A stretch of DNA of 64,000 bases from Leisingera sp. ANG1 (GTDB taxonomy: Bacteria > Pseudomonadota > Alphaproteobacteria > Rhodobacterales > Rhodobacteraceae). Shown piece by piece: positions 11,284 to 60,142 of the stretch (its first letter is position 1; each line of letters starts with the position of its first letter). The DNA lies in NCBI RefSeq assembly GCF_000203975.2, contig NZ_AFCF02000006.1, forward strand, positions 186,001-250,000. The letters are read 5' to 3'. The translations under genes were made by a program, and so were the position numbers. The notes below the pieces were generated by a model that worked only from the letters and a program-made list of their open reading frames with translations, did no database searches and was not told where the DNA came from.

Positions 11284-11355
11284 GAGGGGCTCCCGCGCCA
11301 TGCTGCCGCATCATAGATGCAGCAGCATAAGACTTGGGCCGGGCTCCGCTGGCGC
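11284..11355 (-). repeat. Convergent-gap repeat, copy A
   Basis: Read on the minus strand: 5' block GCGCCAGCGG...GGCCCAA (11355-11334), a 37-base variable middle with a hairpin ATGCTGC/GCAGCAT (11300-11328), then GCGGGAGCCC (11296-11287). Same architecture as copies at 11440, 20945, 25371, 44376, 46414, 50043, 54775 and 60078. It lies between the convergent DUF6678-like gene and ilvD. The rest of the 11265-11721 gap holds copy B, the ilvD terminator and no recognisable gene. Confidence 0.7.
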
Positions 11356-11439
11356 GGCGCGGTTGCGTTCAAAGCGCGGTGGTCCCGCTTCTTTCTGGTT
11401 CAAAATACCCCCCGCCGGAGGCGCGCCGTGCGCCTGCAC

Positions 11440-11503
11440 GGCGCAAAGCCCAACGCCGCTCGGTGCACTGGCGTGAGCCAGAGGGCCGCAGCGGGGGCGG
11501 GAG
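11440..11503 (+). repeat. Convergent-gap repeat, copy B
   Basis: GGCGCAAAGCCCAA (11440-11453), a 42-base middle with hairpin CTGGC-GTGA-GCCAG, then GGCGGGAG (11496-11503). It sits in the same gap as copy A but in the opposite orientation. This is the most divergent spacing of the set. Confidence 0.6.
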
Positions 11504-11661
11504 AGATTGGCGGATGCAGAAAATTTTCTGAGAAGCGGTTCAGGGGCAGGGCTGCCCTGAACGCGCTTTCCCCATGGTAAAGCACCTGAAACCGCCTCAA
11601 GGGCAAGCGGCTGCGCCGCCGCGCGTTCGCGCGGCCCTTGACCCGGCTTCAGGCGCGGGAG

Positions 11662-11696
11662 CCAAAAGAAAACCCGCCGCGTAGAGGCGGCGGGTT
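11662..11696 (-). terminator. Intrinsic terminator of ilvD
   Basis: A ten-base perfect stem AACCCGCCGC (11671-11680) / GCGGCGGGTT (11687-11696). Read on the minus strand it is followed by TTTTCTTTTGG, a good T-rich tail, 26 bases after the ilvD stop codon. Confidence 0.85.
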
Positions 11697-11721
11697 CTGT
11701 GTGCTCCAAGTCTGAGCGGTA

Positions 11722-13566
11722 TCAGTCCTCGTCGGGCAACGCGCGCACCGCGCCTTTGGCGGCGGAGGTTGCCAGCAGCGCGTAGGCCTTCAGCGCCTTG
11801 GAGACCTTGCGCTTGCGCGGTTCGGCGGGTTTCCAGCCCTTGGTGTCCTGTTCCTCGCGGCGCGCGGCCAGGTCCTCGTCGGAGACAGCCAGATGGATCG
11901 AGCGGTTGGGGATGTCGATCTCGATCCTGTCGCCCTGGCGCACCAGGCCGATGGTGCCGCCCTCGGCTGCCTCGGGCGAGACATGGCCAATCGACAGGCC
12001 GGAGGTGCCGCCGGAGAAGCGGCCGTCAGTCAGCAGCGCGCAGGCTTTGCCCAGGCCCTTCGACTTGAGGTAGGAGGTCGGGTAGAGCATTTCCTGCATC
12101 CCCGGACCACCGCGCGGGCCTTCGTAGCGGATCACCACCACGTCGCCTTCCTTGACCTTGCCGGTAAGGATGTCGTTCACGGCGGCGTCCTGGCTTTCGC
12201 AGACATAGGCCGAGCCGGTGAATTTCAGGATGTTTTCATCCACGCCCGCGGTCTTCACGATGCAGCCGTCCAGAGCGATATTGCCGAAGAGCACCGCAAG
12301 GCCGCCGTCCTGGCTGAAGGCGTGCTCCTTGGCGCGGATCACACCGTTTTCACGGTCGGTGTCCAGTTCCTTGTAGCGGTTGGCCTGGGAAAAGGCCTGG
12401 GTGGTGCGGACGCCGCCAGGGGCGGCCTTGAACAGCTCTTCGGCCTCCGGGTTGTTGGCGACCTTGATGTCCCATTTGGCAATCGCCTCGCCCATGGATG
12501 AGGAATGCACGGTGTGGCAGTCGTTGTGCAAAAGGCCTGCGCGGCTCAGCTCGCCCAGGATCGAGAAGATGCCGCCGGCGCGGTGCACGTCCTCCATGTG
12601 GACGTTGTGGATGTTCGGCGCGACCTTGCACAGGCAGGGCACTTTGCGGCTCAACTGGTCCATGTGTGACATGTTGAAATCCACCTTGCCTTCGTTGGCG
12701 ATGGCCAGGAGGTGCAGCACAGTGTTGGTGGAGCCGCCCATGGCGATATCGAGGCTCATCGCGTTCTCAAACGCCTCAAACGTGGCAATTTCGCGCGGCA
12801 GCAGGCCTTTTTCCTCGTCCTGGTAGTGACGCTTAGTGATCTCGACGATCTTGCGCCCGGCCTCCAGGAAGAGGCCCTTGCGGTCGGCGTGCGTCGCCAG
12901 CGTCGAGCCGTTGCCCGGCAGCGCCAGGCCCAGGGCCTCGGCCAGGCAGTTCATTGAGTTGGCGGTGAACATGCCCGAGCACGACCCGCAGGTCGGGCAG
13001 GCGTTTTCCTCGATATGCTTCACCTGGTCGTCGGTGAACTTGTCATCCGCCGCCGCGACCATGGCATCCACCAGGTCGATCTTTTTCATGTCCAGATCGG
13101 CGATGTCGATCTTACCTGCCTCCATCGGGCCGCCGGAGACGAAGATCGCCGGGATGTTGAGACGCATGGCGGCCATCAGCATGCCCGGAGTGATCTTGTC
13201 GCAATTGGAGATGCAAACCATGGCATCCGCGCAGTGTGCGTTGACCATGTATTCGACGCTGTCGGCGATCACCTCGCGCGAGGGCAGCGAGTAGAGCATG
13301 CCGTCATGGCCCATGGCGATGCCGTCATCCACCGCGATGGTGTTGAACTCCTTGGCGACGCCGCCGGCCGCCTCGACCTCGCGGGCGACCATCTGGCCCA
13401 GGTCCTTGAGGTGGACGTGGCCGGGCACGAACTGGGTGAAGGAGTTGACAATGGCGATGATCGGCTTGCCGAAATCATCGTCTTTCATGCCGGTGGCGCG
13501 CCACAATCCGCGCGCGCCCGCCATGTTGCGGCCATGGGTGGAGGTTCTGGATCGGTACTTTGGCAT
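11722..13566 (-). CDS. ilvD: Dihydroxy-acid dehydratase
   Basis: A 614-residue IlvD, the usual length for the E. coli-type enzyme. It dehydrates 2,3-dihydroxy-isovalerate and -methylvalerate in valine and isoleucine synthesis. Iron-sulfur ligands are visible as C122 ('[11 protein letters not shown]') and the '[18 protein letters not shown]' cluster region (about residues 190-207). '[10 protein letters not shown]' and the C-terminal '[12 protein letters not shown]' and 'DGRFSGG' motifs are intact. The ATG at 13566 opens with '[13 protein letters not shown]', the standard IlvD start; an upstream extension lacks family sequence. It is followed by a strong terminator. Confidence 0.97.
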
Positions 13567-13699
13567 CAGGCTGGTTCCCTTAGTCTTTGCCCTCAGGGAC
13601 ACGATTTGCGCAACAAAGGCAACCGGCCGGGGGGCTGTTCGGTAATTTTGGCGCAGTTTGCGCCGGATTTCAGTGGCGAAATGTCTCTCGGGCTGTTTC

Positions 13700-14878
13700 T
13701 CAGGCGCGGGCGGGGGCAGGTTCGGGGCTTTTCAGCCAGTGTTTCACCAGAAGGCCCAGCACCAGCGCCCAGAACGGCGCGCCGATTCCAAAGAAACTGA
13801 TGCCGGAGACCGTGGTCATGAAGGTGATGAGCGCGGCCTCGCGCCCTTGCGGCTGAGCCAGCGCGGCAGACAGGCTGTTGCCGATGGTGGCCAGCAGCGC
13901 CAGGCCTGCGACGGTGGCAACCAGCGCCTTGGGGGCGATCAGAAAGAGGCTGATCACAGTGGCGCCGCCCAGTCCCACCAGGATGTAGACAACGCCCGTC
14001 ATTACGCCTGCCAGATAGCGGGTTTCGGGGTTCTCGTCCGCTTCCGGGCCGGCGCAGATGGCGGCGGTAATGGCGGCAAGGTTGAAGGCAAAGCCGCCGA
14101 AGGGGGCGAGGATCAGCGAGGCCAGGCCGGTGATGGTCAGGCTGGCGGAAACCGGCGGCTCATAGCCGCAGGCCTTCAGCGCCACTACGCCGGGCATGTT
14201 TTGCGAGGACATGGTGACGATGTAGAGCGGCAGGCCGATGCCGATCAGCACCGGCAGCGAGAAGGCGGGCATCACGAACTCGGGGCGGGCCAGTGTCAGG
14301 TCCAGCGCCTCCAGGCTGCCGAAGGCACCTGTACTCGCGCACCATGCCACACCTGCGGCCAGCACCGCGGGAATGGTGTAGCGGGGGAACAGCTTGCGCC
14401 CGGCCAGAAAGGTCAGGCCCATCACCGCCACCAGCGCTGTGTCGGTCTGCAGCGAGGTGAAGGCAGAGAGACCGAACTGGAACAGGATGCCCGCCAGCAT
14501 CGCGCTGGCCAGGCTGTCCGGGATCAGACGGGAGAGGGCGGCGAACCAGCCGGTAATACCCGTGAGCGTCAGGAGCGCCGCGCAGAGGAGGAAGGCGCCC
14601 ACCGCCTCTGCCAGCGGCACGCCATTGAGGCTGACCGCCAGCAGCGCCGCGCCCGGTGTCGACCAGGCCGTCAGGACCGGCATCCGGTACATCAGAGAAA
14701 GGATCAGGCAGGTGATCCCCATGCCGAGCCCCAGCACCAGCATCCAGCTGTTGGCCTGTGCCTGTGTGGCGCCCACGGCCTCAATTGCCTGAAAGATAAT
14801 GGCGACTGATCCGGTGTAGCCGACCAGCACGGCAACAGCGCCAGAAACGAGATGCGAAAGCTTCAGATCTTTGAGCAT
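13700..14878 (-). CDS. BenE-type benzoate/H+ symporter family transporter
   Basis: A 392-residue, very hydrophobic protein with about 11-12 membrane segments. It fits the BenE family (benzoate/proton symporters, nucleobase-cation symporter-like fold). Family-like features include the N-terminal '[21 protein letters not shown]', '[11 protein letters not shown]' and '[14 protein letters not shown]'. Substrate not determinable; many BenE homologs are not near benzoate genes, and none are here. It is divergent from an XRE-cupin regulator across a double palindromic operator, so expression is probably controlled by that regulator. Confidence 0.88.
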
Positions 14879-14915
14879 GCGGCTTTTCCTTGGCGGCCGG
14901 GCAGGGTAGGGTGGC

Positions 14916-14957
14916 GTGCGTTATAGCGCACACTACAATTCGTGCGCTATAACGCAC
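14916..14957. promoter_or_regulatory. Double palindromic operator between BenE gene and XRE-cupin regulator
   Basis: GTGCGTTATAGCGCAC (14916-14931) and its exact reverse complement GTGCGCTATAACGCAC (14942-14957) form a perfect 16-base inverted repeat separated by 10 bases. Each half is also internally symmetric (GTGCG...CGCAC), so each can bind a dimer. Centre-to-centre spacing is 26 bases. The second site ends 26 bases before the regulator ATG. Confidence 0.85.
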
Positions 14958-14983
14958 AAGCGTTTTCTTGACGGGCAGAGACC

Positions 14984-15544
14984 ATGAGCAATGACAGCAT
15001 CACCCTGAACCTGCGGGAAATACGTACGGCGGCGGGACTTAGCCTGTCCAAAGCGGCGGAGGCCACAGGTGTCAGCAAGGCGATGCTGGGGCAGATCGAG
15101 CGCGGCGAATCAAGCCCGACGATTGCGACCCTGTGGAAAATCGCCAAGGGTTTCCATCTGCCGCTGACCGCCCTATTGGGCGAGGCCGCGCGGCCGGTGA
15201 GCGCGGCCACCGGCGTCTATGAAACGGTGCAGTTTCCCGGCAGCATCGGGGTCAAGATCGTCTTTCCTTTTGATCCGCTGCTGGGGGCGGAGACTTTTCA
15301 GGTGACGCTGCAGCCGGGGCAGAGCCACCAGTCGCAGCCGCATGACACCGGTGTGACCGAGGAGGTCTATGTGCTGCATGGCTCCATGGAAGTGCTGCGG
15401 GATGGCGAATGGGTGGCGCTGGAGCCGGGGCAGGGGCTGCGCTTTGCCGCCGACCAGCCGCATGGCTACCGCAGCCTTGAGACCGGCGCGGCGTTTCTCA
15501 ACATGCATCACTACCGGCAGGCGGTTCTGACGCAGCGGGATTGA
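14984..15544 (+). CDS. XRE family regulator with C-terminal cupin
   Basis: A 186-residue two-domain regulator: an N-terminal XRE/Cro helix-turn-helix (about residues 8-62, 'GLSLSKAAEATGVSKAMLGQIERGESSPT') and a C-terminal cupin_2 sensor domain (about 105-175, with 'SQPHDTGVTEEVYVLHGSMEVL'). This class senses small carboxylates or amines and controls neighbouring transport or catabolic genes. It is divergent from the BenE-type transporter, with twin perfect operators between them, so it likely represses both genes until a ligand binds the cupin. Confidence 0.92.
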   Translation: MSNDSITLNLREIRTAAGLSLSKAAEATGVSKAMLGQIERGESSPTIATLWKIAKGFHLPLTALLGEAARPVSAATGVYETVQFPGSIGVKIVFPFDPLLGAETFQVTLQPGQSHQSQPHDTGVTEEVYVLHGSMEVLRDGEWVALEPGQGLRFAADQPHGYRSLETGAAFLNMHHYRQAVLTQRD

Positions 15545-15580
15545 TCTGCTTCACTTGTGTATTTTTTCGGGGCTGCCTAC

Positions 15581-15594
15581 CACTTGCGCAAGTG
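15581..15594. promoter_or_regulatory. 14-bp perfect palindrome upstream of EamA gene
   Basis: CACTTGCGCAAGTG is perfectly self-complementary and ends 28 bases before the transporter ATG. A related half (TTCACTTGTG) occurs at 15550. It is probably an operator, but no cognate regulator can be named. Confidence 0.45.
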
Positions 15595-15622
15595 ATTGAG
15601 TTTTCAGGATTTGGAGCCGGGA

Positions 15623-16477
15623 ATGGACACGCTGCGCGGAAGCCTTCTGATGGTGCTGGCCATGGCCGCCTTTGCGCTGGAGGACATGTTCATCAAATCC
15701 GCGGCTCTTGCGCTGCCGGTGGGGCAGATACTGATCCTGTTCGGGCTGGGCGGCATGGCGGTCTTTGCCGCGATGGCGCGTGCGCAGGGTCACGCCCCCT
15801 GGCACCCGGGCTTTGGCACGCGCCCGATGCTGTGGCGCTCCTTGGCGGAAGTTGTCGGGCGGCTGTGCTTCACCCTGGCAATTGCGCTGACGCCTTTGTC
15901 CTCGGCCTCGGCCATTTTGCAGGCGACACCGCTGGTGGTGGCTGCAGGGGCGGTTGTGTTCTTTGGCGAGACCGTCGGCTGGCGGCGCTGGCTGGCGATC
16001 GGGCTGGGGTTTGCCGGGGTGTTCATGATCCTGCGGCCGGGGCTGAGCGGTTTCGAACCGGCCTCGCTGTTTGCGGTGGCAGGCACGCTGGGGTTCGCGG
16101 GCCGCGATCTGGCCACCCGCGCGGCGCCCAAGGATATGAGCAACAACCAGTTGGGGTTCCTGGGCTTTGCCATGCTGGTGGTTGCCGGGATCATTGCGCT
16201 GGGCTGGACTGGCGGTGCGGTCTGGCCTGCCCCGCGTAATTGGCTGGACATCGCTGCGGCCACGGTGATCGGAGTGATTGCCTATAATGCTTTGTCGGGC
16301 GCGATGCGGGCAGGGGAAATTTCGGTCATTGCACCGTTCCGCTACACAAGGCTGGTCTTTGCCATGGTGCTGGGGGTGCTGGTGTTCGGCGAGCGCCCCG
16401 ACACGCTGACCCTCATTGGCAGCGCGGTGATCGTCGTCAGTGGTGTTTTCACGCTGCTGCGCAGCCGCAAAGCGTAA
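15623..16477 (+). CDS. EamA/DMT family transporter
   Basis: A 284-residue, ten-helix drug/metabolite transporter with two EamA repeats (about residues 5-135 and 148-280), e.g. '[25 protein letters not shown]' closing the first and '[25 protein letters not shown]' closing the second. The ATG at 15623 with GGAG (15613) is preferred over a TTG at 15596. Probably an exporter of a small metabolite; substrate unknown. It follows the XRE-cupin gene by 78 bases with a palindrome in between. Confidence 0.88.
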
Positions 16478-16521
16478 CCGTATCTTGCGCCCGCCGCGGT
16501 GCGGCCTTACATCTGCCGCCC

Positions 16522-17004
16522 ATGGCCAAGAAGAAGCAGACATCAGACCCGAACTACAAGGTGATCGCCGAGAACCGGCGGGCACGTTTCGATTATGCAA
16601 TCGAGGACGATATCGAATGCGGCATCGTGCTGGAGGGGTCCGAGGTCAAGGCGCTGCGCGGCAACGGCACCAATATCGCGGACAGCTATGCTGCGGTGGA
16701 AGAGGGCGAGTTGTGGCTGGTGAACTCCTACATTCCGCCATACGCGCAGGCCAAGGTGTTCAAGCATGAGGAACGCCGACGCCGCAAGCTGCTGGTGTCG
16801 CGCAAGGAACTGTCGGACCTGTGGAACCTCACCCAGCGCAAGGGCATGACCCTGGTGCCGCTGGTGATCTATTTCAACCACAAGGGCCGCGCCAAGATCA
16901 AGCTGGGCATCGCCAAGGGCAAAAAACTGCACGACAAGCGCGAAACCCAGGCCAAACGGGATTGGGGCCGCCAGAAACAGCGCCTGCTGAAGGACGCGCG
17001 GTAG
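16522..17004 (+). CDS. smpB: SsrA-binding protein
   Basis: A 160-residue SmpB, the tmRNA partner in trans-translation rescue of stalled ribosomes. The OB-fold core is intact: '[29 protein letters not shown]', '[22 protein letters not shown]', and the basic C-terminal tail ('[22 protein letters not shown]' region) that enters the mRNA channel. Normal length. It sits alone between the EamA gene and the convergent leucine-rich-repeat gene, 11 bases from the latter's stop. The ssrA gene itself is not in the window. Confidence 0.97.
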
Positions 17005-17015
17005 GTTTCGGCCTA

Positions 17016-18233
17016 TCAGTCTTTCTGGCTTGCGCCGGTAACGTATCTGGCAATCTGCTTCCGCCCCAGCAGGCGCCTGTGCGGCCCGCCTTCCGGGCCG
17101 GCGTAGAGGATCTTGAGGTTTTCGGTTCTGAGCAACGGCAGGAGAGTTTCCTGAGGCAAGCCGATGGCCCGCAGGATAGACAGATTTTTCAGGCCTTCGA
17201 GCGGTTGCAGATCCCGGACGGCTGTGCCGGATATTCCAAGTTCCTTCAGACCTGGCATCTGCCGGACAGGCGCCAGACTGATCACCGCAGTGCCAATTGC
17301 TGAAAGCTCACGGAGGCTTGGCCCTGCAAGCGGCTTAAGGTTGCTGACAGTGGTGCCGTCCAATACCACAGTTTGAAGCGCGGAAAGGTTTGACAGGGGC
17401 GCGAGGTCTTGGACACGCGTGTGTGCCAGGTTCAGTTCTGCCAGTCTGCCTGCGCTTGCCAAGGGCGACAGGTCGGCAACGCTGCTGCCTGTCAGGACCA
17501 CGGTATGAAGGGCGGGTTTATTCTGCAGCCCTTCCAGGCTTTGCAGGCGGCTTCCGTCTGCGCGCAGCATTTCCAGACTGCTGGAGGCCGCCAGCGGTGC
17601 CAGGCTTTGGACCGGGCAACCGGAGATCCAGACCACGCGCAGGTTCGCCGCGGCCAGCGGTGCCAAATCGGAGATGCCGGTGTTGAAGGCCAGCAGATTT
17701 TCCAGCGTGGCCATTCCCGCCAGCGGTTCCAGGTCCGTGACGCCTGAATCGGCAATATTGAGGCTTTGCAGACGGTTGTAACCGCGCAAAAAGGAGAGAT
17801 CTGTCAGCTCCCTGATGCCCCAGACGGAAAGATGCTCAAGCCGGGTCAATTGCGCCAGCGGAGTGAAATCGCGGGTCCGGACAGAATCAAGGCTCAGCCG
17901 CCGCAGTTCCGGCAGCCGCGTCAAAGGCTCCAGGCCGGAAACGCCCAGCCCCACTAGCGCCAGTTTCTCCAGATTGGGAAGCTGAGCCAGCGGTGACAGG
18001 TCTACGGGGTCTTCAAATCCTGGTTCTGCTATCAGCGACAGGCTGGTCAATTGCTGAAACTGTACCAGTTCCTGCAAGTCCGACTGCCTTGCGCCAAGCC
18101 TGATGCTCGCCTCTAAGTTATTGTCTTTTATGCATGTACTTCCAAAGGCCGCACAGCTGGCCTGCGCAGGAAACGGCAGGGACAGCCAGGCGGCCAGAAG
18201 GATGAATGCAAAAAAGCTGCGCAAACCGGGCAT
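17016..18233 (-). CDS. Secreted leucine-rich-repeat protein
   Basis: A 405-residue protein with a clear Sec signal peptide (residues 1-26, ending 'PAQA-SC') and then about 12-14 leucine-rich repeats of roughly 20-23 residues with the pattern 'L.PL..L..L..L.L..T.V.DL'. This is the SDS22/internalin-like type. The repeats end near residue 375; the last part is basic. No anchor or catalytic domain is visible, so it is probably periplasmic or exported and binds a protein partner. Start chosen at the ATG preceded by AAAGG. It overlaps nothing and stands alone between smpB and sseA. Confidence 0.82.
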   Translation of the reverse strand: MPGLRSFFAFILLAAWLSLPFPAQASCAAFGSTCIKDNNLEASIRLGARQSDLQELVQFQQLTSLSLIAEPGFEDPVDLSPLAQLPNLEKLALVGLGVSGLEPLTRLPELRRLSLDSVRTRDFTPLAQLTRLEHLSVWGIRELTDLSFLRGYNRLQSLNIADSGVTDLEPLAGMATLENLLAFNTGISDLAPLAAANLRVVWISGCPVQSLAPLAASSSLEMLRADGSRLQSLEGLQNKPALHTVVLTGSSVADLSPLASAGRLAELNLAHTRVQDLAPLSNLSALQTVVLDGTTVSNLKPLAGPSLRELSAIGTAVISLAPVRQMPGLKELGISGTAVRDLQPLEGLKNLSILRAIGLPQETLLPLLRTENLKILYAGPEGGPHRRLLGRKQIARYVTGASQKD

Positions 18234-18399
18234 GTGATTACCTTTTCCGACACCTGCCGCAATAATGCAGGCAAGATGTTTCTGCTCCGTAAAACACACG
18301 CATAAGGCCCGTAAAGGCTTGTGAGGGGGACAGGACAGCTTGCACCGCCCTGCCACGGGATGTACCCATGGCGCTAAATGCAGATAGGGAGACGCTTTG

Positions 18400-19254: not shown

Positions 19255-19257
19255 GCA

Positions 19258-20442: not shown

Positions 20443-20467
20443 GCCTGAGCCACTTTGAAATTTTAGA

Positions 20468-20930: not shown

Positions 20931-20944
20931 CCCCGTTCCGCCCC

Positions 20945-21013
20945 GCGCCAGCGGCGCCCGGCCCAAAAGCGAAGGGTCATTTCTTGATGATCCTGCAACT
21001 GGCGGGAGCCCTC
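20945..21013 (+). repeat. Convergent-gap repeat, copy C
   Basis: 5' block GCGCCAGCGG...GGCCCAA (20945-20966), a 34-base middle with hairpin GGGTCAT/ATGATCC, 3' block GGCGGGAGCCCTC (21001-21013). Its outer blocks are nearly identical to copy A. It lies between the convergent charged-protein gene and amtB. Confidence 0.75.
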
Positions 21014-21026
21014 CGCCGAAACACAA

Positions 21027-21053: not shown

Positions 21054-21075
21054 AATTTTGTCAGCAGGGCTGGAC

Positions 21076-22410: not shown

Positions 22411-22436
22411 AAGTCTTTCCTCCATGCCGGGCGCGC

Positions 22437-25256: not shown

Positions 25257-25370
25257 AAATACGGATAGGCGGTGCTCCCGCCCGTCTCTGGCCTCCATGC
25301 GGAGGCATCGCCAGTTGGGCCCGGCGCCGCACCTTGAAGGTGCGGCGCGCGCCTGTCCCACAGGGCCTGG

Positions 25371-32955: not shown

Positions 32956-32978
32956 CGAGAGGCAAATTCAGGCGGGCT

Positions 32979-33341
32979 CTAGCCGGTTTCCGCCCTTAGG
33001 GATTCAAAAAGGTCTTTCAGAATCCGATTGCCTTCCTCTGACTGAGAAATGAGGCAAGGGTCATTCCACTCATTCTGAAAGACGAACATGCAGCCTGCAA
33101 AGTTTACACTCGAGCAGGCCGGATACGCGGTTATCTCCGGTACACCGTAGATGCTTTCGATAGCTTCTCTGACAGCCGTCAGGTCAGACGCGCTGAATTC
33201 TAGCGAGAGACGGCCGCTCGAAAGTTCTAAAATCTTGAATGTTATTGTTTTTTCCTTGTCCTGCAGCCTTGGCGGACTGTGTCTTACAGCTTGACCTGAA
33301 TAGGTCAGCAATGTTGTCTTAATGTTTCGCGCGCGAAACAT
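32979..33341 (-). CDS. Hypothetical protein, AT-richer orphan
   Basis: A 120-residue soluble protein I cannot place in a family. It has no signal peptide or membrane helix. The middle ('LSLEFSASDLTAVREAIESIYG') looks like a strand-helix unit, and the end ('NEWNDPCLISQSEEGNRILKDLFESL') resembles the tail of some small immunity-type proteins, though this is weak. Its composition is clearly AT-richer than its neighbours, suggesting transfer. The start codon lies inside a perfect 22-base palindrome (33321-33342), which is unusual and may regulate it. Confidence 0.6.
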   Translation of the reverse strand: MFRARNIKTTLLTYSGQAVRHSPPRLQDKEKTITFKILELSSGRLSLEFSASDLTAVREAIESIYGVPEITAYPACSSVNFAGCMFVFQNEWNDPCLISQSEEGNRILKDLFESLRAETG

Positions 33342-33342
33342 T
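33321..33342. promoter_or_regulatory. 22-bp perfect palindrome over an orphan gene start
   Basis: From 33321 to 33342 the sequence is perfectly self-complementary, with arms AATGTTTCGCG and CGCGAAACATT. The core GTTTCGCGCGCGAAAC fits the loose pattern GTTNNNNGCNNNNAAC reported for RepB partition sites of repABC replicons, though not the stricter versions. It overlaps the start codon of the minus-strand orphan gene, so an operator is the simpler reading. Confidence 0.65.
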
Positions 33343-33392
33343 CGGACAGAAACGCTGACCCTATTTTTTACGAATTATTAAGAGGTTGAAGG

Positions 33393-33416
33393 GTGGCCGC
33401 CTGCCTTGGCGGCCAC
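33393..33416 (-). terminator. Hairpin before peroxiredoxin stop side, possible terminator
   Basis: Stem GTGGCCGCC (33393-33401) / GGCGGCCAC (33408-33416). On the minus strand it lies 13 bases after the peroxiredoxin stop, but what follows (CCTTCAACC) is not a T-run. Possible weak terminator. Confidence 0.45.
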
Positions 33417-33429
33417 TGCAGTTCCAGAA

Positions 33430-37049: not shown

Positions 37050-37073
37050 GGCCGTTGTGGTACTGTTCCGCGC

Positions 37074-37265
37074 ATGGAACAGACCTTGCGCCTACCGTTC
37101 CTGCGGTATTCAAAAGAAGCGGAAACGCAGAAACTGCCTGCGTCAAAACCGCTGCGGGCACCGCTGTTCATTCAGGATGCGGTGACACCGTTTGGCGATG
37201 GTACGTTATTGCTGGCGCTCTGGCGGTTTCAGGAAGCTGATGGGCAGGACGACGCAAAGTCCTGA
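37074..37265 (+). CDS. Possible 63-residue protein
   Basis: A 63-residue frame beginning ATG 25 bases after the HAD stop, same strand. No clear ribosome site and no recognised family; the product has a Leu-rich middle ('DGTLLLALWRFQEA') and an acidic end. Weak indirect support: this gap is the only convergent gap longer than about 130 bases without the repeat element, which would fit a coding role. It may be spurious. Confidence 0.3.
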   Translation: MEQTLRLPFLRYSKEAETQKLPASKPLRAPLFIQDAVTPFGDGTLLLALWRFQEADGQDDAKS

Positions 37266-37300
37266 CCGTATCCGTCCTGCACCTGGCTGAAAGAAATCCG

Positions 37301-37324
37301 GAGCACCGGGGGGCGGCCCCTGGT
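37301..37324 (-). terminator. Hairpin after map, possible terminator
   Basis: Around 37301-37324 GCACCGGGGGGCGG pairs with CCCCTGGTGC (outer arms GCACC/GGTGC, inner GGG/CCC). On the minus strand it is followed by TCCGGATTTCTTT after the map stop, a weak T-rich tail. Confidence 0.5.
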
Positions 37325-37337
37325 GCGTCTTGGCAGG

Positions 37338-44375: not shown

Positions 44376-44438
44376 CACTCCCGCCCCCGCAGGTGTCTTA
44401 GTGATTGCAAGCCTTCTTGGAGGGGGCAGGCTTGGCGC
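44376..44438 (-). repeat. Convergent-gap repeat, copy E
   Basis: Read on the minus strand: GCGCCAAGCC...CCCTCCAA (44438-44417), a 31-base middle whose AGGCTTG can pair with the CAAGCCT inside the 5' block, then GGCGGGAGTG (44385-44376). Between the convergent OmpA-type and GlxA-type genes. The 3' block GGCGGGAGTG is identical to that of copy H. Confidence 0.6.
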
Positions 44439-46307: not shown

Positions 46308-46413
46308 ACGGGCCGACGGGCTGCAGTCCGGAGATTCCCGGGCCTTGGCCACGACATCAGAGATGCCTCAGCAAGCCTTCGGTCCGGCGCCGTGCTGGAG
46401 TCCGGCGTGCGAC

Positions 46414-46480
46414 GCGCAGCGGCGCTGGACCCAACGGGAGCAGATCAATCTTTGATTGATCCGGGAAGGGCGGGAGCCTG
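46414..46480 (+). repeat. Convergent-gap repeat, copy F
   Basis: GCGCAGCGGCGC...GACCCAA (46414-46434), a 34-base middle with the perfect hairpin GATCAATC-TTT-GATTGATC (46443-46461), then GGCGGGAGCCTG (46469-46480). It sits between the convergent aldolase and LysR genes. A further direct copy of TGATTGATCC lies at 46482-46491. Confidence 0.7.
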
Positions 46481-49973: not shown

Positions 49974-50042
49974 GCGCTTTGCGGGCCCGGCGCCTGAAGG
50001 GCGCGCGGGGACACTGCAGCCCGGCTTCGGCGCCTTGAAAGT

Positions 50043-50100
50043 GCGCCGGGTCCAACAGCGGGCAGGGCCTGACTAGTCCGGCTGCCGCAGGCGGGAGGCC
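50043..50100 (+). repeat. Convergent-gap repeat, copy G
   Basis: GCGCCGGGTCCAA (50043-50055), a 34-base middle with arms GGGCAG/CTGCC, then GGCGGGAGGCC (50090-50100). Between the convergent ABM-protein and fadH-like genes. Confidence 0.65.
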
Positions 50101-50109
50101 TATGTCTTC

Positions 50110-53281
<3,172 letters not shown>

Positions 53282-53287
53282 TACTGG

Positions 53288-54157: not shown

Positions 54158-54169
54158 GTGTTTCTCCTT

Positions 54170-54211
54170 ATCTTGATATCGAGATAATGGATTTTATCTT
54201 GACGTCAAGAT
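54170..54211. promoter_or_regulatory. Twin MarR operators between EamA and MarR genes
   Basis: ATCTTGATATCGAGAT (54170-54185, one mismatch from perfect) and ATCTTGACGTCAAGAT (54196-54211, perfect). Centre-to-centre spacing is 26 bases. The TCTTGA...TCAAGA arms are of the kind bound by MarR-family dimers. They lie 13 bases upstream of the EamA start and 21 before the MarR start. Confidence 0.88.
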
Positions 54212-54232
54212 GTAAATACCTAAACCGGTGGC

Positions 54233-54718
54233 ATGGACCATGTAGATTTTATTACCCAGCAATGGGGGCAGGAGCGGCCGGACCTGGATGTGACGGCTAT
54301 GGGCATCATTGGCCGGGTCGCGCGGCTGTATCTGGCCTATCAGCGTGAGATGCATAAAACCTTCGCGGAGTTCGGGCTGAATGCGGCCAAGTTCGACGTG
54401 CTGGCCACCTTGCGCCGGTCGGGTGCGCCTTACACGCTGTCACCAGGCGATCTGCTGAAGGCGACAATGGTGGCGTCCGGCACTATGACCAACCGCATCG
54501 ACCGGCTGGAGGCAGACGGGCTGGTCAAGCGCGAGGTGAACCCGGAGGACAGCCGCAGTTTTCTGGTTGGGCTGACAGAAGAAGGCTTTGCCCTGATCGA
54601 TCGGGCCGTCACAGCCCATGTTGAGACCCAGACACGGTTGCTGAGCGCAATGAGCGGGCAGGACGTTGAGACCTTCAAAGTGCTTTTGAGCAAGGCGCAG
54701 CTGTCGGCTGACAGCTGA
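54233..54718 (+). CDS. MarR family transcriptional regulator
   Basis: A 161-residue MarR repressor. The winged helix-turn-helix is about residues 45-115, with 'DLLKATMVASGTMTNRIDRLEADGLVKREVNPEDSRSFLVGLTEEG' as the recognition helix and wing. N- and C-terminal helices form the dimer interface. Divergent from an EamA exporter with twin operators in between, a standard MarR-exporter module. Confidence 0.93.
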   Translation: MDHVDFITQQWGQERPDLDVTAMGIIGRVARLYLAYQREMHKTFAEFGLNAAKFDVLATLRRSGAPYTLSPGDLLKATMVASGTMTNRIDRLEADGLVKREVNPEDSRSFLVGLTEEGFALIDRAVTAHVETQTRLLSAMSGQDVETFKVLLSKAQLSADS

Positions 54719-54774
54719 GGCTGGAACCGGTAGGCCCGTGTGCCTGCCGCAGGCAGGCTGCGCGGGGCGGCAAA

Positions 54775-54840
54775 GCCGCGCCGCGCTACGCCCAAGGGCC
54801 GAAAATGCACCGCGAGGTGCAGTTCCGGCGGGCGGGAGTG
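54775..54840 (+). repeat. Convergent-gap repeat, copy H
   Basis: GCCGCGC...GCTACGCCCAA (54775-54795), a 35-base middle with the perfect hairpin TGCACC-GCGA-GGTGCA (54806-54821), then GGCGGGAGTG (54831-54840). Between the convergent MarR and PfkB-kinase genes. Confidence 0.65.
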
Positions 54841-54850
54841 TCCGGCGGGA

Positions 54851-55843
54851 TTAAACCAGCCCGGCTTCTTCCAGCAGGTGCCGCACGTTGGTTTCAGGGC
54901 GCGGGCCGATATGGCAGATGACTTCGCCTGCACAGATGCAGCCCATTCGAGCGCAGACTTCCATGCTGCGGCCGGTGGCGAGACCGAACAGGAAACCGGC
55001 AGCGAACTGGTCGCCTGCACCAGTCGCGTCAACCGGTGTGATCGTTTCGACCGGCACGTCGACACGCACGCCATCATTCAACACAGTCACACCGTCGCCA
55101 GAACGGGTGCAAACCACCAGCGCGCAGATCGCGGCGGTCCTGGCCATTGCTTCTTCCAGGTCGCTGGTTTCGAACAGGGCGCAGATTTCGTCCTGGTTTC
55201 CGATCACGAAATCCAGCTCGTTGCTGATCAGGTTCAGGAAGTCGGCCCGGTGGCGCTCGACGCAGAACGGGTCGGAGATCGAAATGCCAACTTTGCCGCC
55301 GCCCTCACGGCAGTCGCGGGCCGCTTCCAGAAAGGCGGTCTTGCCCTTGTCCTTGTCGAACAGATAGCCTTCCAGGAACATGATCTGGGCGTTGCCGGCC
55401 ACGTCCTGGGGCACGTCGTCGGAACTCAGTTCCGACGAAATGCCAAGGTAGGTGTTCATTGAACGCTCACCGTCCGGCGAGACAAAGATCATCGACCGCG
55501 AGGTCGGCATCTCGCCGTCCGCTACCGGCGCATTCACAAAGCTGACGCCCTCGTTGTTCATTGCATCGGCGTAGAATTTTCCAAGCGCGTCGTCACGGAC
55601 GCGGCCGATGAAGGCTGACTGCAGCCCCAGCGCGCCGGCGCCAGCGATGGTATTGGCGACCGAGCCGCCAGGGGTTAGAACCCGGTTGCCCATTGCCGCA
55701 TAAAGCTCTTCGCAGCGGTCGCGCTCGATCAGCTGCATGATGCCTTTTTCAATGCCTTGTTCAGCCAGGAAGCTGTCCTCGCATTGCGCAATCACATCCA
55801 CCACGGCATTGCCAATGCCGACGAGCTGGTAGGTCTTGGTCAT
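54851..55843 (-). CDS. PfkB family sugar/nucleoside kinase (adenosine kinase-like)
   Basis: A 330-residue PfkB-fold kinase. N-terminal 'VGIGNAVVDVIAQ', 'TPGGSVANTIAGAGALG' substrate lid region, and the C-terminal catalytic signature 'VDATGAGDQFAAGFLFG' (catalytic Asp near residue 278). Closest to the adenosine-kinase-like subgroup of alphaproteobacteria; substrate not settled. Single gene followed, on the minus strand, by repeat copy H. Confidence 0.92.
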   Translation of the reverse strand: MTKTYQLVGIGNAVVDVIAQCEDSFLAEQGIEKGIMQLIERDRCEELYAAMGNRVLTPGGSVANTIAGAGALGLQSAFIGRVRDDALGKFYADAMNNEGVSFVNAPVADGEMPTSRSMIFVSPDGERSMNTYLGISSELSSDDVPQDVAGNAQIMFLEGYLFDKDKGKTAFLEAARDCREGGGKVGISISDPFCVERHRADFLNLISNELDFVIGNQDEICALFETSDLEEAMARTAAICALVVCTRSGDGVTVLNDGVRVDVPVETITPVDATGAGDQFAAGFLFGLATGRSMEVCARMGCICAGEVICHIGPRPETNVRHLLEEAGLV

Positions 55844-55904
55844 GGTCCCTCCTCGGGGAATTCCAAAGCGGTGTCATTTCAGGCGACTATGCCGCTCAAA
55901 AAGT

Positions 55905-56549
55905 TTACAGGTTCTTGTCTTCAAACATGCAGAGATCGCGGATGATGCAGGTTCCGCACATCGGTTTTCGCGCCTTGCAGTGATAGCGGCCGTGCAGGAT
56001 CAGCCAGTGATGGGCATGCTGCTGGAAATCCGCGGGGATGTTATCCTCCACCGCGCGTTCCACGGCATCCACATCCTTGCCCGGCGCAATGCCTGAGCGG
56101 TTGCCGACTCGGAAGATGTGGGTGTCCACCGCCTGCGCAGGCTGTTTCCACCACATGTTCAATACAACATTGGCCGTTTTACGCCCCACGCCGGGCAAGG
56201 ATTGCAACGCAGCGCGGGAATTCGGGACTTCGCCGCCGTAGTCCTCGACCAGGATCCTGGACAGCTTGATCACATTCTTGGCCTTGTTGCGGTAGAGGCC
56301 AATTGTTTTGATATGCTCGATCAGGCGTTCCTCGCCCAGATCCAGCATCTTTTGCGGGGTGTCGGCAATCTTGAACAGCTCACGGGTCGCCTTGTTGACC
56401 CCTGCATCGGTTGCCTGTGCCGACAGTGCAACCGCAACGACCAGCGTGTAGGCGTTGACGTGTTCCAGTTCACCCTTGGGTTCGGGCTCGGCTGCCTGAA
56501 AGCGCGTGAAGATCTCGCGCAGCGTATGATAATCGAGTTGCTTTGCCAT
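55905..56549 (-). CDS. nth: Endonuclease III
   Basis: A 214-residue DNA glycosylase/AP lyase. Helix-hairpin-helix 'LPGVGRKTANVVLN' with the catalytic Lys in 'ALSAQATDAGVNKAT' onward/HhH-GPD region and catalytic Asp in 'VDTHIFRVGNR'. C-terminal 4Fe-4S motif Cys-x6-Cys-x2-Cys-x5-Cys ('CKARKPMCGTCIIRDLC'). Removes oxidised pyrimidines. Divergent from the Ada/AraC-type alkyltransferase, so both repair genes share the 157-base promoter region (56550-56706). Confidence 0.95.
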   Translation of the reverse strand: MAKQLDYHTLREIFTRFQAAEPEPKGELEHVNAYTLVVAVALSAQATDAGVNKATRELFKIADTPQKMLDLGEERLIEHIKTIGLYRNKAKNVIKLSRILVEDYGGEVPNSRAALQSLPGVGRKTANVVLNMWWKQPAQAVDTHIFRVGNRSGIAPGKDVDAVERAVEDNIPADFQQHAHHWLILHGRYHCKARKPMCGTCIIRDLCMFEDKNL

Positions 56550-56706
56550 CGCGCGCCATATGTACAGAGCGGGTGTCAAAGAGCAATTGAAATTGCGCCT
56601 TTCCTGCTGCGGGCTCCTGTCTAGTAGGAAAACCCGCAAGTTCCGGGTCGATTGCAGTGTTGGGCCGGAGTATGTTGAATACACAACCACGAAACAGGCT
56701 GGACCG

Positions 56707-57576
56707 ATGAATATCGAAGCGCGGGAAAACTCCTATCACTATGGTGTCATGCGCCGGGCGATTGAGCTGATCGACGATGGCGGCGAGGATCTGACACTGG
56801 AGCAGCTGGCGGTTCGCATGGATATGAGCCCCACGCATTTTCAGCGGGTGTTTTCGGCCTGGGTGGGTGTTTCCCCAAAGCGTTATCAGCAATACTTGCG
56901 GCTGGGCCATGCCAAAGCACTACTGCGGGACCGGTTCACCACGCTGGAGGCGTCACATGCAGTAGGGCTGTCTGGCTCCGGGCGCTTGCATGATCTGTTT
57001 CTGCGCTGGGAGGCGATGAGCCCTGGCGAATATGCCCGCAAAGGGGACGGCCTGCAGATTTTCTGGGGCTGGTTTGACAGCCCCTTTGGGCTTGCTCTGG
57101 TGATGGGCACGGAAAAGGGTATTTGCGGACTGGCATTTGCTGCCGAGACTGGCGCCGAACCTGCCATGGCCGATATGCGCGCCCGCTGGCCTCAGGCTGA
57201 GTTCATTGAGGACCCGTCTGCCCTGCGCCCTTTGGCGGAGGCCGCCTTTGCCCAAAAGGGGGAAACTGCGCTGCACATGATCGGTGCACCTTTGCAGATC
57301 AAGGTATGGGAAGCGCTGCTGCGCATCCCGTCAGGCCATGTTACCACTTATTCAGAACTGGCCCATGCCATCGGCGCCCCCAAGGCCGTGCGCGCAGTTG
57401 GCACAGCAGTCGGACGCAACCCTGTCAGCTGGCTGATCCCCTGTCACCGCGCCTTGCGGAAATCCGGCGCACTGGGCGGCTATCACTGGGGGCTTCCGGT
57501 CAAACGCGCGATGCTCGCCTTTGAGGCTGCGCGGGATGAGGAGGCTGCGGCAGGTGATATGCGCGCTGCCGGCTGA
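56707..57576 (+). CDS. AraC-HTH/methylated-DNA-cysteine methyltransferase fusion (Ada-like, no zinc domain)
   Basis: A 289-residue fusion. N-terminal AraC helix-turn-helix (about residues 10-105, 'LAVRMDMSPTHFQRVFSAWVGVSPKRYQQYLRLGHA'), then the MGMT domain with active site 'NPVSWLIPCHRALR' (PCHR, Cys about residue 246) and 'GYHWGLPVKRAML'. It repairs O6-alkylguanine by suicidal transfer. The N-terminal Zn-containing phosphotriester domain of E. coli Ada is missing, so the usual methylation switch is absent. The ATG at 56707 is used. Confidence 0.92.
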   Translation: MNIEARENSYHYGVMRRAIELIDDGGEDLTLEQLAVRMDMSPTHFQRVFSAWVGVSPKRYQQYLRLGHAKALLRDRFTTLEASHAVGLSGSGRLHDLFLRWEAMSPGEYARKGDGLQIFWGWFDSPFGLALVMGTEKGICGLAFAAETGAEPAMADMRARWPQAEFIEDPSALRPLAEAAFAQKGETALHMIGAPLQIKVWEALLRIPSGHVTTYSELAHAIGAPKAVRAVGTAVGRNPVSWLIPCHRALRKSGALGGYHWGLPVKRAMLAFEAARDEEAAAGDMRAAG

Positions 57577-57742
57577 ATTGGCGCTGCAGCAGGCTAGGTG
57601 CTGCGGGCTTAAAGGTCTGTCGGGCTTCGTGGCGCTTTCGCGCTTCCTCACGCTCAATCTCATGCGGAGTAAAAGCACGTTGCCTGCTGTCCCAGCGGTC
57701 TAGACCCAGGGTAATCATCACAATCCAATCGTAGCTCAGCAT
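57500..57742 (-). CDS. Small hypothetical protein overlapping the Ada-like gene
   Basis: An 80-residue protein read antisense over the last 77 bases of the Ada-like gene. It is supported by a perfect AAAAGGAGG ribosome site 7 bases before the ATG (57742). The N-terminal part ('MLSYDWIVMITLGLDRWD' then basic) looks like a short amphipathic or membrane-associated helix; the C-terminal half, which overlaps the Ada gene, is Pro/Gln/Arg-rich and low-complexity. I do not recognise it. The true product might be shorter only if a stop were nearer, which is not the case. Confidence 0.5.
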   Translation of the reverse strand: MLSYDWIVMITLGLDRWDSRQRAFTPHEIEREEARKRHEARQTFKPAAPSLLQRQFSRQRAYHLPQPPHPAQPQRRASRV

Positions 57743-57780
57743 AGGGTTCCTCCTTTTCCAGTGGCCAGAAAATCAGACCC

Positions 57781-57825
57781 CTGCTGACATGCTGTTGTCA
57801 GTGGTGTGTGTTAGTGTGTCAGCAG
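57781..57825. promoter_or_regulatory. Inverted-repeat operator of the YafY-type regulator
   Basis: CTGCTGACA (57781-57789) and TGTCAGCAG (57817-57825) are perfect 9-base inverted arms, with an inner TGTCAG (57796-57801) also matching. They end 21 bases before the regulator ATG at 57847. Probably autoregulatory. Confidence 0.7.
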
Positions 57826-57846
57826 AATGTCACTGGAGCCCCGCCA

Positions 57847-58536
57847 ATGCCCCGCACCGGCCGTTTGTTCGAGATCATCCAAATCCTGCGTTCCGCCTCA
57901 GCACCGGTGCGGGCAGAGGATCTTGCGGCACAGCTGGAAGTGTCCAAACGCACCATCTACCGGGACATCGTTGCCCTCCAGGCAATGCGCACTCCGGTGG
58001 AGGGGGAAGCAGGGATCGGCTACATGCTGCGCAAGGGCTATGATCTGCCGCCGCTCAATTTCGATGAGGAGGAGCTGGAGGCGCTGCATGTGGGATTGGC
58101 GATGCTGATGCGCACGGGCGATGGAGCCTTGCAGAAAGCAGCGGAGCGGGTGAGCCACAAGATCAAGGATGTGCATGCGACCGCCGACTGGCTGCAGGTT
58201 GCCCCTTGGGGTGCACCGCTGGATGACCCGCAGCAGGGTTGCGTCTCCAAGGCCCTGCTGCGCCAGGCAGTGCGGGAAAGCCGCAAACTGCATCTGACGT
58301 ATCTTAGCCCTGAAAGGGGTGAAAGCCGCCGCACCTTGCGGCCGCTTGCCCTGATTTATCACATCGAGTGCACCATGCTGGCTGCCTGGTGCGAGCTGCG
58401 TGGCGGTTTCAGGCATTTCCGTACTGACCGGATGCTGGCCGCGGAATTGCGGGAAGTGGATTTCGCCGCCGAGGCTGCTGCCTTGCGTAAACTGTGGATG
58501 GAACAGGAGGGCTGGAACTTTGCTTTTGCGCCCTGA
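57847..58536 (+). CDS. YafY-type HTH/WYL-domain transcriptional regulator
   Basis: A 229-residue regulator: N-terminal HTH_11 ('RAEDLAAQLEVSKRTIYRDIVALQAM', about residues 20-46) and a C-terminal WYL ligand-sensing domain (about 135-205, 'HLTYLSPERGESRRTLRPLALIYHIECTMLAAWCELRGGFRHFRTDRM'). WYL regulators often sense oligonucleotides or stress. Its own operator lies upstream. No obvious target next to it; the small antisense gene and the OmpA lipoprotein are the neighbours. Confidence 0.92.
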   Translation: MPRTGRLFEIIQILRSASAPVRAEDLAAQLEVSKRTIYRDIVALQAMRTPVEGEAGIGYMLRKGYDLPPLNFDEEELEALHVGLAMLMRTGDGALQKAAERVSHKIKDVHATADWLQVAPWGAPLDDPQQGCVSKALLRQAVRESRKLHLTYLSPERGESRRTLRPLALIYHIECTMLAAWCELRGGFRHFRTDRMLAAELREVDFAAEAAALRKLWMEQEGWNFAFAP

Positions 58537-58674
58537 AAATGCATGTGTTTTTCGTTTTTTGCGCGGTAATCCGCCTAAATGAAAACGCTTTGCCTTGAGA
58601 ACGTGGCGCGACATCCCGATATTCGAGCAGACTGCCGGGCGCTGCCCGGAGCTTAGAAAGCAGAAGGCAATTTT

Positions 58675-59334
58675 ATGATGCAGATGAAACTCACCACGGC
58701 TGGTATTGTCGCCGCAACCCTGACACTTGGCGCTTGTACCGATCCCGCAACTGTCGGCACTCCGGGCAGCAACACTCAAAAGGGTGCGGTTCTTGGCGGT
58801 ATCATCGGCGCTGGCGTTGGTGCGATTGCCAATGATTCCGATCGCGGCCTAGGTGCGGTGACCGGTGCGCTGGTTGGTGCGACCGCCGGCAGCGTGATTG
58901 GCAATCAGCTCGATGCGCAGGAGCGCGAGCTGCGCCAGAACCTGTCGAACGATGATATCACCATCGTCAATACTGGCGACCGGCTGATCTTGTCATTCCC
59001 GAACGATCTGACATTTGCCACTGACAGTGCCGCGGTTTCGCCGGCCGTGCAGGGCGATTTGCGCCGCGTGGCGAACAGCCTCGTGCGATACCCCAACAGC
59101 ACCATCCAGGTTATCGGCCATACCGACAGCGATGGTGATGCAGGTTACAACCAGGGCCTTTCTGAGCGCCGGGCAAATGCAGTCGCCAGTGAAATTGCAG
59201 CTGGCGGTGTGCCCTATCACCGCATGCGCATCATCGGCCGCGGCGAGGAACAGCCGGTGGCCTCGAACCTGACACCGGAAGGCAAGGCCCGCAACCGCCG
59301 CGTCGAGGTGGTGGTGATCCCGCAAGCCGCCTGA
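58675..59334 (+). CDS. OmpA-family lipoprotein with glycine zipper
   Basis: A 219-residue outer-membrane lipoprotein. Signal peptide with lipobox 'TLGAC' (Cys about residue 21). Then a glycine-zipper region ('GAVLGGIIGAGVGAIAND', 'GAVTGALVGATAGSVIG') and a C-terminal OmpA domain ('IQVIGHTDSDGDAGYNQGLSERRANAVASEI', 'NRRVEVVVIP'). Similar to YiaD. It anchors the outer membrane to peptidoglycan. Single gene with its own terminator. Confidence 0.93.
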   Translation: MMQMKLTTAGIVAATLTLGACTDPATVGTPGSNTQKGAVLGGIIGAGVGAIANDSDRGLGAVTGALVGATAGSVIGNQLDAQERELRQNLSNDDITIVNTGDRLILSFPNDLTFATDSAAVSPAVQGDLRRVANSLVRYPNSTIQVIGHTDSDGDAGYNQGLSERRANAVASEIAAGGVPYHRMRIIGRGEEQPVASNLTPEGKARNRRVEVVVIPQAA

Positions 59335-59357
59335 CCTGGCCCTGGCGGCACGAATTG

Positions 59358-59387
59358 CAGCCCGTCCCGCAAGGGATGGGCTGTTTT
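59358..59387 (+). terminator. Intrinsic terminator of OmpA lipoprotein gene
   Basis: Stem CAGCCCGTCCC (59358-59368) / GGGATGGGCTG (59373-59383) with one G-T wobble and a GCAA tetraloop, followed by TTTT. Confidence 0.88.
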
Positions 59388-59508
59388 CGTTCCGGTGTAG
59401 CGGCTTTACGCAACGCTGCACATTGCTTGCGCGGGTATGGCTGTTTCATGCTGGAGGCGCCCTCTTACATGATGGTGCAACACGAGACGCTAACAGAAGG
59501 AACTCTCC

Positions 59509-60051
59509 ATGGCCGACCCTGTCCTGCTGACCATTTCCGGCTCGCTGCGGCGAGAGGCCACCAACCGCAAGCTTCTGGCCGAAGCCGCACGGGTGTTCGG
59601 CCCGGCTACTGTCGTGGAAGCCGATCTGAATCTGCCGCTCTATGATGGTGATGCGGAAGCGGCAGAGGGGATCCCGCCTGCGGTGCAGGCACTTGCGAAT
59701 CAAATCGCGGCTGCGGATGCGGTGGCGATTTCGACACCTGAATACAACAAGGGGCCGTCGGGAGTGCTGAAGAATGCCCTCGACTGGGTCAGCCGCACCG
59801 AGGGCAGCCCTTGGACGGACAAACCTGTGGCAGTGATGTCGGCGGCGGCAGGCCGGGCCGGGGGCGAGCGGGCGCAGATGATCCTGCGCGGTTTTCTGGT
59901 GCCGTTTCAGCCGAGGCTGATTACCGGACCAGAGGTGCACCTAGCGGCGTCTGGAAAGCAATTCGACGAACAGGGGCGGCTGACAAGTGAGCAGTATGAA
60001 GCCACACTAACCAAGCTTATGCAGAAGCTGCGGGCCGAAGCGTCTCGTTGA
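59509..60051 (+). CDS. NADPH-dependent FMN reductase family protein
   Basis: A 180-residue flavodoxin-fold reductase (chromate/azo/quinone reductase type). FMN loop 'ISGSLRREATNRKL' (GSxRxxSxN-like) and 'STPEYNKGPSGVLKNALDWVSR' near residue 80 are conserved. It reduces FMN, quinones or azo compounds with NADPH. AGAAGGA precedes the ATG by about 9 bases. Substrate unknown. Confidence 0.92.
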   Translation: MADPVLLTISGSLRREATNRKLLAEAARVFGPATVVEADLNLPLYDGDAEAAEGIPPAVQALANQIAAADAVAISTPEYNKGPSGVLKNALDWVSRTEGSPWTDKPVAVMSAAAGRAGGERAQMILRGFLVPFQPRLITGPEVHLAASGKQFDEQGRLTSEQYEATLTKLMQKLRAEASR

Positions 60052-60077
60052 AAGTGAAGGGGGCAGGCAGGTTGCAT

Positions 60078-60142
60078 GCTCCCGCGATTGAAGCTTCCCT
60101 TGGGGCCGATTGGCGGCTTGGATGCGGCGCCGCCAGCGCGGC
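60078..60142 (-). repeat. Convergent-gap repeat, copy I
   Basis: Read on the minus strand: GCGCTGGCGGCGCCGCATCCAA (ending at 60118), a 32-base middle, then GCGGGAGC (60085-60078). The most degenerate copy, with GCATCCAA instead of GGCCCAA and no clean central hairpin. Between the convergent FMN-reductase and FAD-oxidoreductase genes. Confidence 0.5.

Follow-up and report, generated by a model that had tools for sequence, protein, structure and literature searches.

A probable family of REP-like, two-hairpin palindromes behind stop codons in Leisingera sp. ANG1 and other Rhodobacteraceae

Repetitive extragenic palindromes (REPs) of the GTAG and CGTC superfamilies carry an unpaired terminal tag, GTAG or CGTC with the variants TGTC and CCTC, and their main-text description places them between convergent and unidirectional open reading frames (ORFs), beside 3' ends and often in opposite orientation (Di Nocera et al. 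2013, PMC3733652). Other described systems that invite comparison are the bacterial interspersed mosaic elements (BIMEs) and the REPINs with their REP-associated tyrosine transposases (RAYTs) (PMC2817692, PMC3116915), and the Caulobacter CIR repeats, described as intergenic units of about 110 bp that have two hairpin arms joined by a linker and carry GANTC (PMC2229807). In E. coli, REPs 15 nt or less from a stop codon are reported to depress translation (PMC12306157). Here we describe an intergenic two-hairpin element that occurs in ten copies in a 64-kb window of Leisingera sp. ANG1 (the whole stretch of DNA analysed, 64,000 nt) and at many other sites in that genome, and whose anatomy, copy number, location bias, conservation and covariation could be established directly. 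We consider it probable, although well short of certain, that the element belongs to a Rhodobacteraceae family (found here only there) of dispersed non-coding palindromes of the REP/BIME class, which were copied, survive past stop codons, are expected to form hairpins in 3' untranslated regions (3'-UTRs) and may shield mRNA.

On its informative strand a unit lies about 20 nt past a stop codon and consists of a CTCCCGC tag (box 1), a hairpin of variable sequence and about 33 nt (hairpin II, hpII), a TTGGG(C) motif (box 2), 2-3 bases, and a second, G+C-rich hairpin (hairpin I, hpI). An earlier note on the window had written the element on the opposite strand, ending in GCGGGAG; its reverse complement is the more informative orientation because CTCCCGC then comes shortly after a same-strand gene's stop codon. 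The GC-rich 5' block of that description is present and in most copies is a second hairpin, hpI, but it is degenerate in some window copies. We built a covariance model (R1) from 12 copies, and among the 90 matches that it lists in the own genome both CTCCCGC and TTGGG are exact in 71; the 12 training copies and some of the aligned sets used below were chosen by their boxes, so that box invariance within them is partly by construction. Two unit types can be told apart, A (CTCCCGCC) and B (CTCCCGCG), with B making up 10 of the 90 listed matches. Predicted folds of type A also pair GCC(C) with GGG(C), and only CTCCC and TT are therefore predicted to be unpaired there. The base pair that adjoins the boxes on their inner side is C-G in most copies and G-C or A-T in a few. 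Units stand alone or, often, form inverted pairs with tags outward and hpI parts shared or adjacent, some of which join a type A with a type B unit; the R1 list contains at least 11 such pairs, and 26 of the 90 listed matches have a partner as judged by the boxes.

The own 4.59-Mb draft genome holds at least 90 copies (R1, E<=1). This figure is an undercount, as the list was drawn from the best 150 candidates scored and includes five of the ten window copies, while E exceeds 1e-3 for 11 of the 90 matches and a few are offset from, or cover only part of, a genuine copy. Within the same genus, each of the 20 genomes searched yields 54-112 matches (E<=0.01). Across the family, 48 of 295 genomes including the own one, and 47 of 294 genera, have a match at E<=1e-4 among the best 15 candidates per genome; across the class, a second model found matches in 2 of 337 genomes, both of the same family, among the best 13 candidates per genome. 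R1 also matched 18 of 80 named loci around a penicillin-binding protein gene (about 7 kb per genome), from Leisingera, Phaeobacter, Pseudophaeobacter, Zongyanglinia, Tritonibacter, Tropicibacter and other Rhodobacteraceae/Rhodobacterales records; the protein encoded at this site in the window, beside copy 4, is at most 97% identical to Leisingera strain proteins. Locus L098, in a record titled Nocardioides marinus, has the element and a penicillin-binding protein 88% identical to that of Leisingera, and its title is probably wrong.

Copies are strongly biased toward gaps at gene 3' ends, with genes called by our own ORF caller rather than taken from a curated annotation. All nine copies of the earlier note lie in convergent gaps of the window, as it had claimed, but the exclusivity it proposed does not extend to the genome, where convergent gaps hold 57 of the 90 listed matches, tandem gaps 27 and divergent gaps 5, with 1 inside an ORF call. 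Tandem placement is nevertheless far rarer per gap: in a near-regular 620-kb sample, considering gaps of at least 60 bp, the element occupies 9/60 convergent, 5/183 tandem and 0/87 divergent gaps (Fisher p=1.4e-3 and 2e-4), so the frequencies are not equal among gap types. Three other genera show the same leaning toward gene 3' ends and above all toward convergent gaps: their 41 matches comprise 25 in convergent, 13 in tandem and 1 in divergent gaps, plus 2 at the ends of contigs. The proposal that every convergent gap above about 130 bp has a copy holds for 8 of 9 in the window when degenerate copies are counted, with 32956-33429 rather than 37050-37337 as the exception by our gene calls; by strict copies, the window is denser (5/9) than the 620-kb sample (6/30 convergent gaps of at least 130 bp). 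Position within the gap is also constrained. In convergent gaps of 180 bp or more, 36 matches have their tag at a median of 24.5 nt from the stop on the same strand, compared to 139 nt between their other end and the opposite gene's stop (KS, Kolmogorov-Smirnov, p=2e-9), and the sense stop is the nearer one in 30 of the 36. Among 68 sense-classified matches the tag starts a median of 21.5 nt after the stop and hpII near 28 nt, with hpII starting 15 nt or less from the stop in 9. At loci L002 and L018, whose gaps measure 108 and 104 bp, the element fills nearly the whole gap.

We then compared hpII between loci in equal-length sets from the own genome, ungapped and with no fitted alignment, by counting Watson-Crick and GU pairs on the central antidiagonal against column shuffles. 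Pairing exceeded the shuffles in all three sets, with z of 5.3 (n=15), 9.1 (n=22) and 4.6 (n=12), and a register shifted by one scored nearly as high in the n=15 and n=12 sets (z 4.9 and 3.9). Against mononucleotide shuffles, hpII folds gave a mean z of -2.24 (38/71 below -2) and hpI folds a mean z of -2.83 (46/71 below -2), compared to -0.47 (10/71 below -2) for an upstream control stretch.

Orthologous gaps show how far the boxes are retained between genomes. At gap A, behind the gene of a 388-aa protein, 20 of 21 genomes retain the two boxes without a change although 92 of the gene's 109 fourfold sites (84%) vary, and at gap B both boxes stand just past the stop in 16 of 21 genomes, with 69% of fourfold sites varying; genomes enter these counts through their boxes, and the others carry no copy at the site, the one at gap A lacking the element altogether. 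Two of the other five genomes at gap B (G004 and G012) carry an hpII of a set-B type about 1 kb farther along, still following that gene. Within gap A, eight of the nine hpI pairs are invariant and hpII differs widely. Five covariation measures were applied to this alignment, on a structure written from members of the set; 91.6% of cells pair compared to 85.7% after shuffling, and the covariation score is 0.141 compared to 0.044, neither value being reached by any of 500 shuffles. At gap C, both boxes are found in 13 of 22 loci (21 genomes), once with box 2 shortened to TTGG. Behind the penicillin-binding protein gene, the first 420 nt contain no box pair in most of the 80 loci, and in five readable loci (L101, L107, L108, L110 and L111) inspection by eye showed a hairpin resembling a terminator in this stretch. 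Together with the hpII covariation (z 4.6-9.1, with the limits given), the data from gaps A and B support selected structure, as the earlier note had proposed, and the constancy of the boxes at some orthologous sites hints at a factor that reads them beside the hairpin. Two gap-B loci, L202 and L221, have hpII sequences only 62% identical as a block, between coding ends that are 96.5% and hpI stretches that are 97% identical; that hpII is present in 8 of the 21 genomes searched, at one place in six and at two places in the own genome (G000) and in G003. We do not claim cassette-like swapping of hpII here, as allele exchange between species explains the block difference as well.

Within the window, all nine stretches of the earlier note are real and lie where it had placed them, and a tenth copy, overlooked there, occupies 25275-25357(+). 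R1, applied to the retrieved DNA, recovers 9 of the 10 at E<=1; the copy at 44378 is recognised by its boxes only. TTGGA replaces TTGGG in the three copies at 44378, 50051 and 60079. The copies and the parts of copy 4 are as follows.
11290 to 11369, + strand: copy 1, paired in inverted orientation with copy 2, box of type B (CTCCCGCG); R1 16.2 bits, E 0.29; boxes exact at 11290-11338
11414 to 11503, - strand: copy 2, the other half of copy 1's pair; R1 27.4 bits; boxes at 11449-11503
20931 to 21008, - strand: copy 3, 67 nt 3' of an ammonium transporter gene (Pfam PF00909); R1 42.8 bits
25275 to 25357, + strand: copy 4, the added copy, following a class A penicillin-binding protein gene (PF00912, PF00905) at 18 nt from its stop; R1 49 bits
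25275 to 25281, + strand: copy 4 box 1, CTCCCGC, from the sequence
25282 to 25314, + strand: copy 4 hpII, the variable hairpin, from sequence and fold
25315 to 25319, + strand: copy 4 box 2, TTGGG, from the sequence
25324 to 25348, + strand: copy 4 hpI, predicted by folding as an 11-bp G+C-rich stem with a 3-nt loop
25346 to 25425, - strand: copy 5, forming an inverted pair with copy 4, 90 nt 3' of an mlaC-like gene (PF05494); R1 64.7 bits, training copy
44378 to 44438, + strand: copy 6, degenerate box 2 (TTGGA); box pattern only, no R1 match at E<=1
46395 to 46476, - strand: copy 7; R1 55.2 bits, training copy
50021 to 50097, - strand: copy 8, box 2 TTGGA; R1 20.8 bits
54756 to 54838, - strand: copy 9, 12 nt 3' of a pfkB-family kinase gene (PF00294); R1 54.5 bits, training copy
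60079 to 60153, + strand: copy 10, box 2 TTGGA; R1 19.2 bits

Two further motifs recur near elements of the own genome. Some copies have an additional hairpin module 3' of hpI, which starts GCTGAGA and has arms GGGCAGG/TTGCCC (five pattern matches in own-genome loci; examples are L068:2966, L059:2939, L054:3104 and L034:4164), and the motif CTTTCTGGT..GAAATAC occurs at L048:2906, L075:3021 and L085:1200, with two of its three pattern matches adjoining an element.

Copying of units is seen indirectly. In genome G109, from another genus, hpII sequences of different loci reach 0.97 identity while their 40-nt and 60-nt flanks never exceed 0.70; near-identical hairpins between unrelated flanks indicate copying in that lineage, which also has type A units facing type B units. 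For the own genome, 70 of the 90 copies could be parsed, and no two of their hpII sequences exceed 0.93 identity, the next highest value being 0.88. We therefore favour a scheme in which units would spread by copying, would persist mainly just after stop codons and above all between convergent genes, and would be transcribed as 3'-UTR hairpins; by analogy with E. coli REPs they may then shield mRNA 3' ends and separate convergent transcripts. Transcription, the mobility mechanism and the function in this scheme are what we infer. It agrees best with one role listed in the earlier note, a non-autonomous repeat that tolerates only 3' gaps, and overall the element looks like a repeat family kept partly by selection.

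Several results weigh against this interpretation. Similarity in hpII is uncorrelated with similarity in hpI (-0.05, in the 70 parsed copies), which would not be predicted from simple copying of whole units; given this value and hpII identities of at most 0.93, the own-genome copy set is old or reshuffled. The PF01797 (Y1) transposase is absent from the own genome and from 14 of the 17 genomes examined, including 9 of the 12 that bear the element, and is present in the other 3, which leaves the element without a known mover, and the gaps examined contained no clean empty sites with target duplications. The tag CTCCCGC is neither GTAG nor CGTC, the tags that mark the REP superfamilies. Constraint is not universal, since 9 of the 22 gap C loci have changed or lost a box and the element is thus dispensable there. 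Orientation in tandem gaps has no sense bias (11 sense versus 16 anti), several anti copies being halves of inverted pairs. As to structure, two-sided-change pairs at gap A number 4 compared to 2.9 and further pair types 10 compared to 8.2, reached by 68 of 500 shuffles, and whole-element folds clearly beat dinucleotide shuffles only in some copies (z from -1.3 to -4.0 as RNA in six copies; -3.7, -0.9 and -3.5 as DNA in three).

The alternative that survives best is a dedicated, non-selfish structured RNA element of mRNA 3' ends, in which a putative RNA-binding protein or the ribosome would read CUCCCGC and UUGGG by the hairpin and set 3'-end formation or stability. Exact boxes at gaps A and B beside freely varying fourfold sites, the covarying hairpin and a tag anchored about 20 nt after the sense stop all fit this possibility, which we hold only tentatively. 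Tandem copies without sense bias count against a purely sense-strand RNA role. The box losses at gap C, the selection of gap A and B genomes by their boxes, with no copy in place in the others, and the lack of a strict copy in most convergent gaps also weigh against this alternative. A bolder form, slightly more doubtful still, would make this a widespread 3'-UTR RNA element of marine Rhodobacteraceae in which a putative trans-acting factor reads CUCCCGC and UUGGG flanking a free-sequence hairpin, sets about 100 transcript 3' ends per genome and insulates convergent neighbours.

A DNA-level site, at which gyrase, a nucleoid protein or a single-strand-specific protein handles supercoils between convergent genes, is unlikely. 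The convergent bias would agree with it, as would the scarcity of copies outside main contigs: the 491-kb contig C14 of the own genome, perhaps a plasmid or chromid, has 0 listed matches compared to 9.6 expected, and 0 of 55 listed matches in G006 and 3 of 95 in G003 lie outside C1. However, binding to double-stranded DNA does not predict hpII covariation, and on two chromosomes that start at dnaA the listed matches are spread out with no clear terminus peak, for which reason a terminus-centred chromosome organiser was also rejected.

Less probable again is that hpI serves as an intrinsic transcription terminator with hpII as an accessory hairpin. The strong G+C-rich stem lies directly past genes, the element nearly fills the gaps at L002 and L018, and TTTT occurs in 6 of 61 14-nt tails after hpI (counted by eye), but across these 61 copies without a partner T reaches only 0.11-0.39 per position after hpI. 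T-tract terminators are moreover about equally common in convergent gaps with the element (9/20) and without it (28/51). This weak T content and similar frequency rule out termination as a general role, leave replacement of terminators by the element unsupported, and bear out the earlier view that the element is separate from the terminators. A chance pattern in G+C-rich gaps is already refuted: although the GCGGGAG box by itself is at chance level in the window (21 versus 21.2), the box pair CCAA-N28-44-GCGGGAG has 11 matches there, 1 of them inside a gene, compared to 1.55 +/- 1.23 after shuffling (0/100 shuffles reach 11), R1 matches that were not among its 12 training copies have E values down to 1.6e-16 in this genome and 1e-18 in a relative, and orthologous sites are conserved.

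Database and literature searches returned no described counterpart. Rfam 15 at gathering score has no family for the element in the window, its sole match there being a cobalamin riboswitch (RF00174, 5113-5311, 107.7 bits), and permissive Rfam scans of two element loci gave matches to E 1.7e-4 (ctRNA_p42d, CRISPR repeats and others), each below its own cut-off. GTTGGGC matches GTTRRRY, the core pattern of integron attC sites, whereas the box opposite departs from it, and an attC identity is considered improbable. The element is not described in the openly available literature searched, including passages of PMC3733652, PMC12306157, PMC2229807, PMC2864571 and PMC8632094, and the main text of PMC3733652, figures aside, does not name Rhodobacter, Ruegeria, Silicibacter, Roseobacter, Dinoroseobacter or Paracoccus.

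Set beside the known repeats, the Leisingera element is, like the CIR repeats, alphaproteobacterial, two-hairpinned and intergenic. It is excluded from that family by GANTC, the CcrM methylation site, which occurs in 0 of 71 parsed own-genome elements where mononucleotide shuffles give 11 +/- 3 (lowest 3 in 200) and the intergenic rate predicts 9.2. REPINs are built of alternating or inverted units around a spacer, and the Leisingera pairs resemble them and BIMEs in this arrangement; unlike RAYT-linked REPINs, they occur in a genome without a Y1 transposase, which rules out a RAYT-driven REP, and some of them join unit types A and B. With REPs as described in the text of PMC3733652 the element shares high copy number, short palindromes with a tag at one end, a mostly extragenic location (1 of the 90 listed matches in an ORF call), 3'-end sites in convergent and unidirectional gaps, and common inverted neighbours. 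It differs from them in its TTGGG(C) tail, the free sequence of hpII and the second hairpin hpI. Given the tag mismatch and the lack of a Y1 transposase in the own genome, we place the element beside the REP superfamilies and not inside them. Its boxes, fixed at some sites around a free, covarying hairpin, offer a natural experiment on whether REP-like repeats stand behind genes by passive tolerance or through use at mRNA 3' ends. The REP-like repeats would thereby gain a family from the Rhodobacteraceae that has a new tag and is built of two hairpins, in a host that lacks a RAYT.

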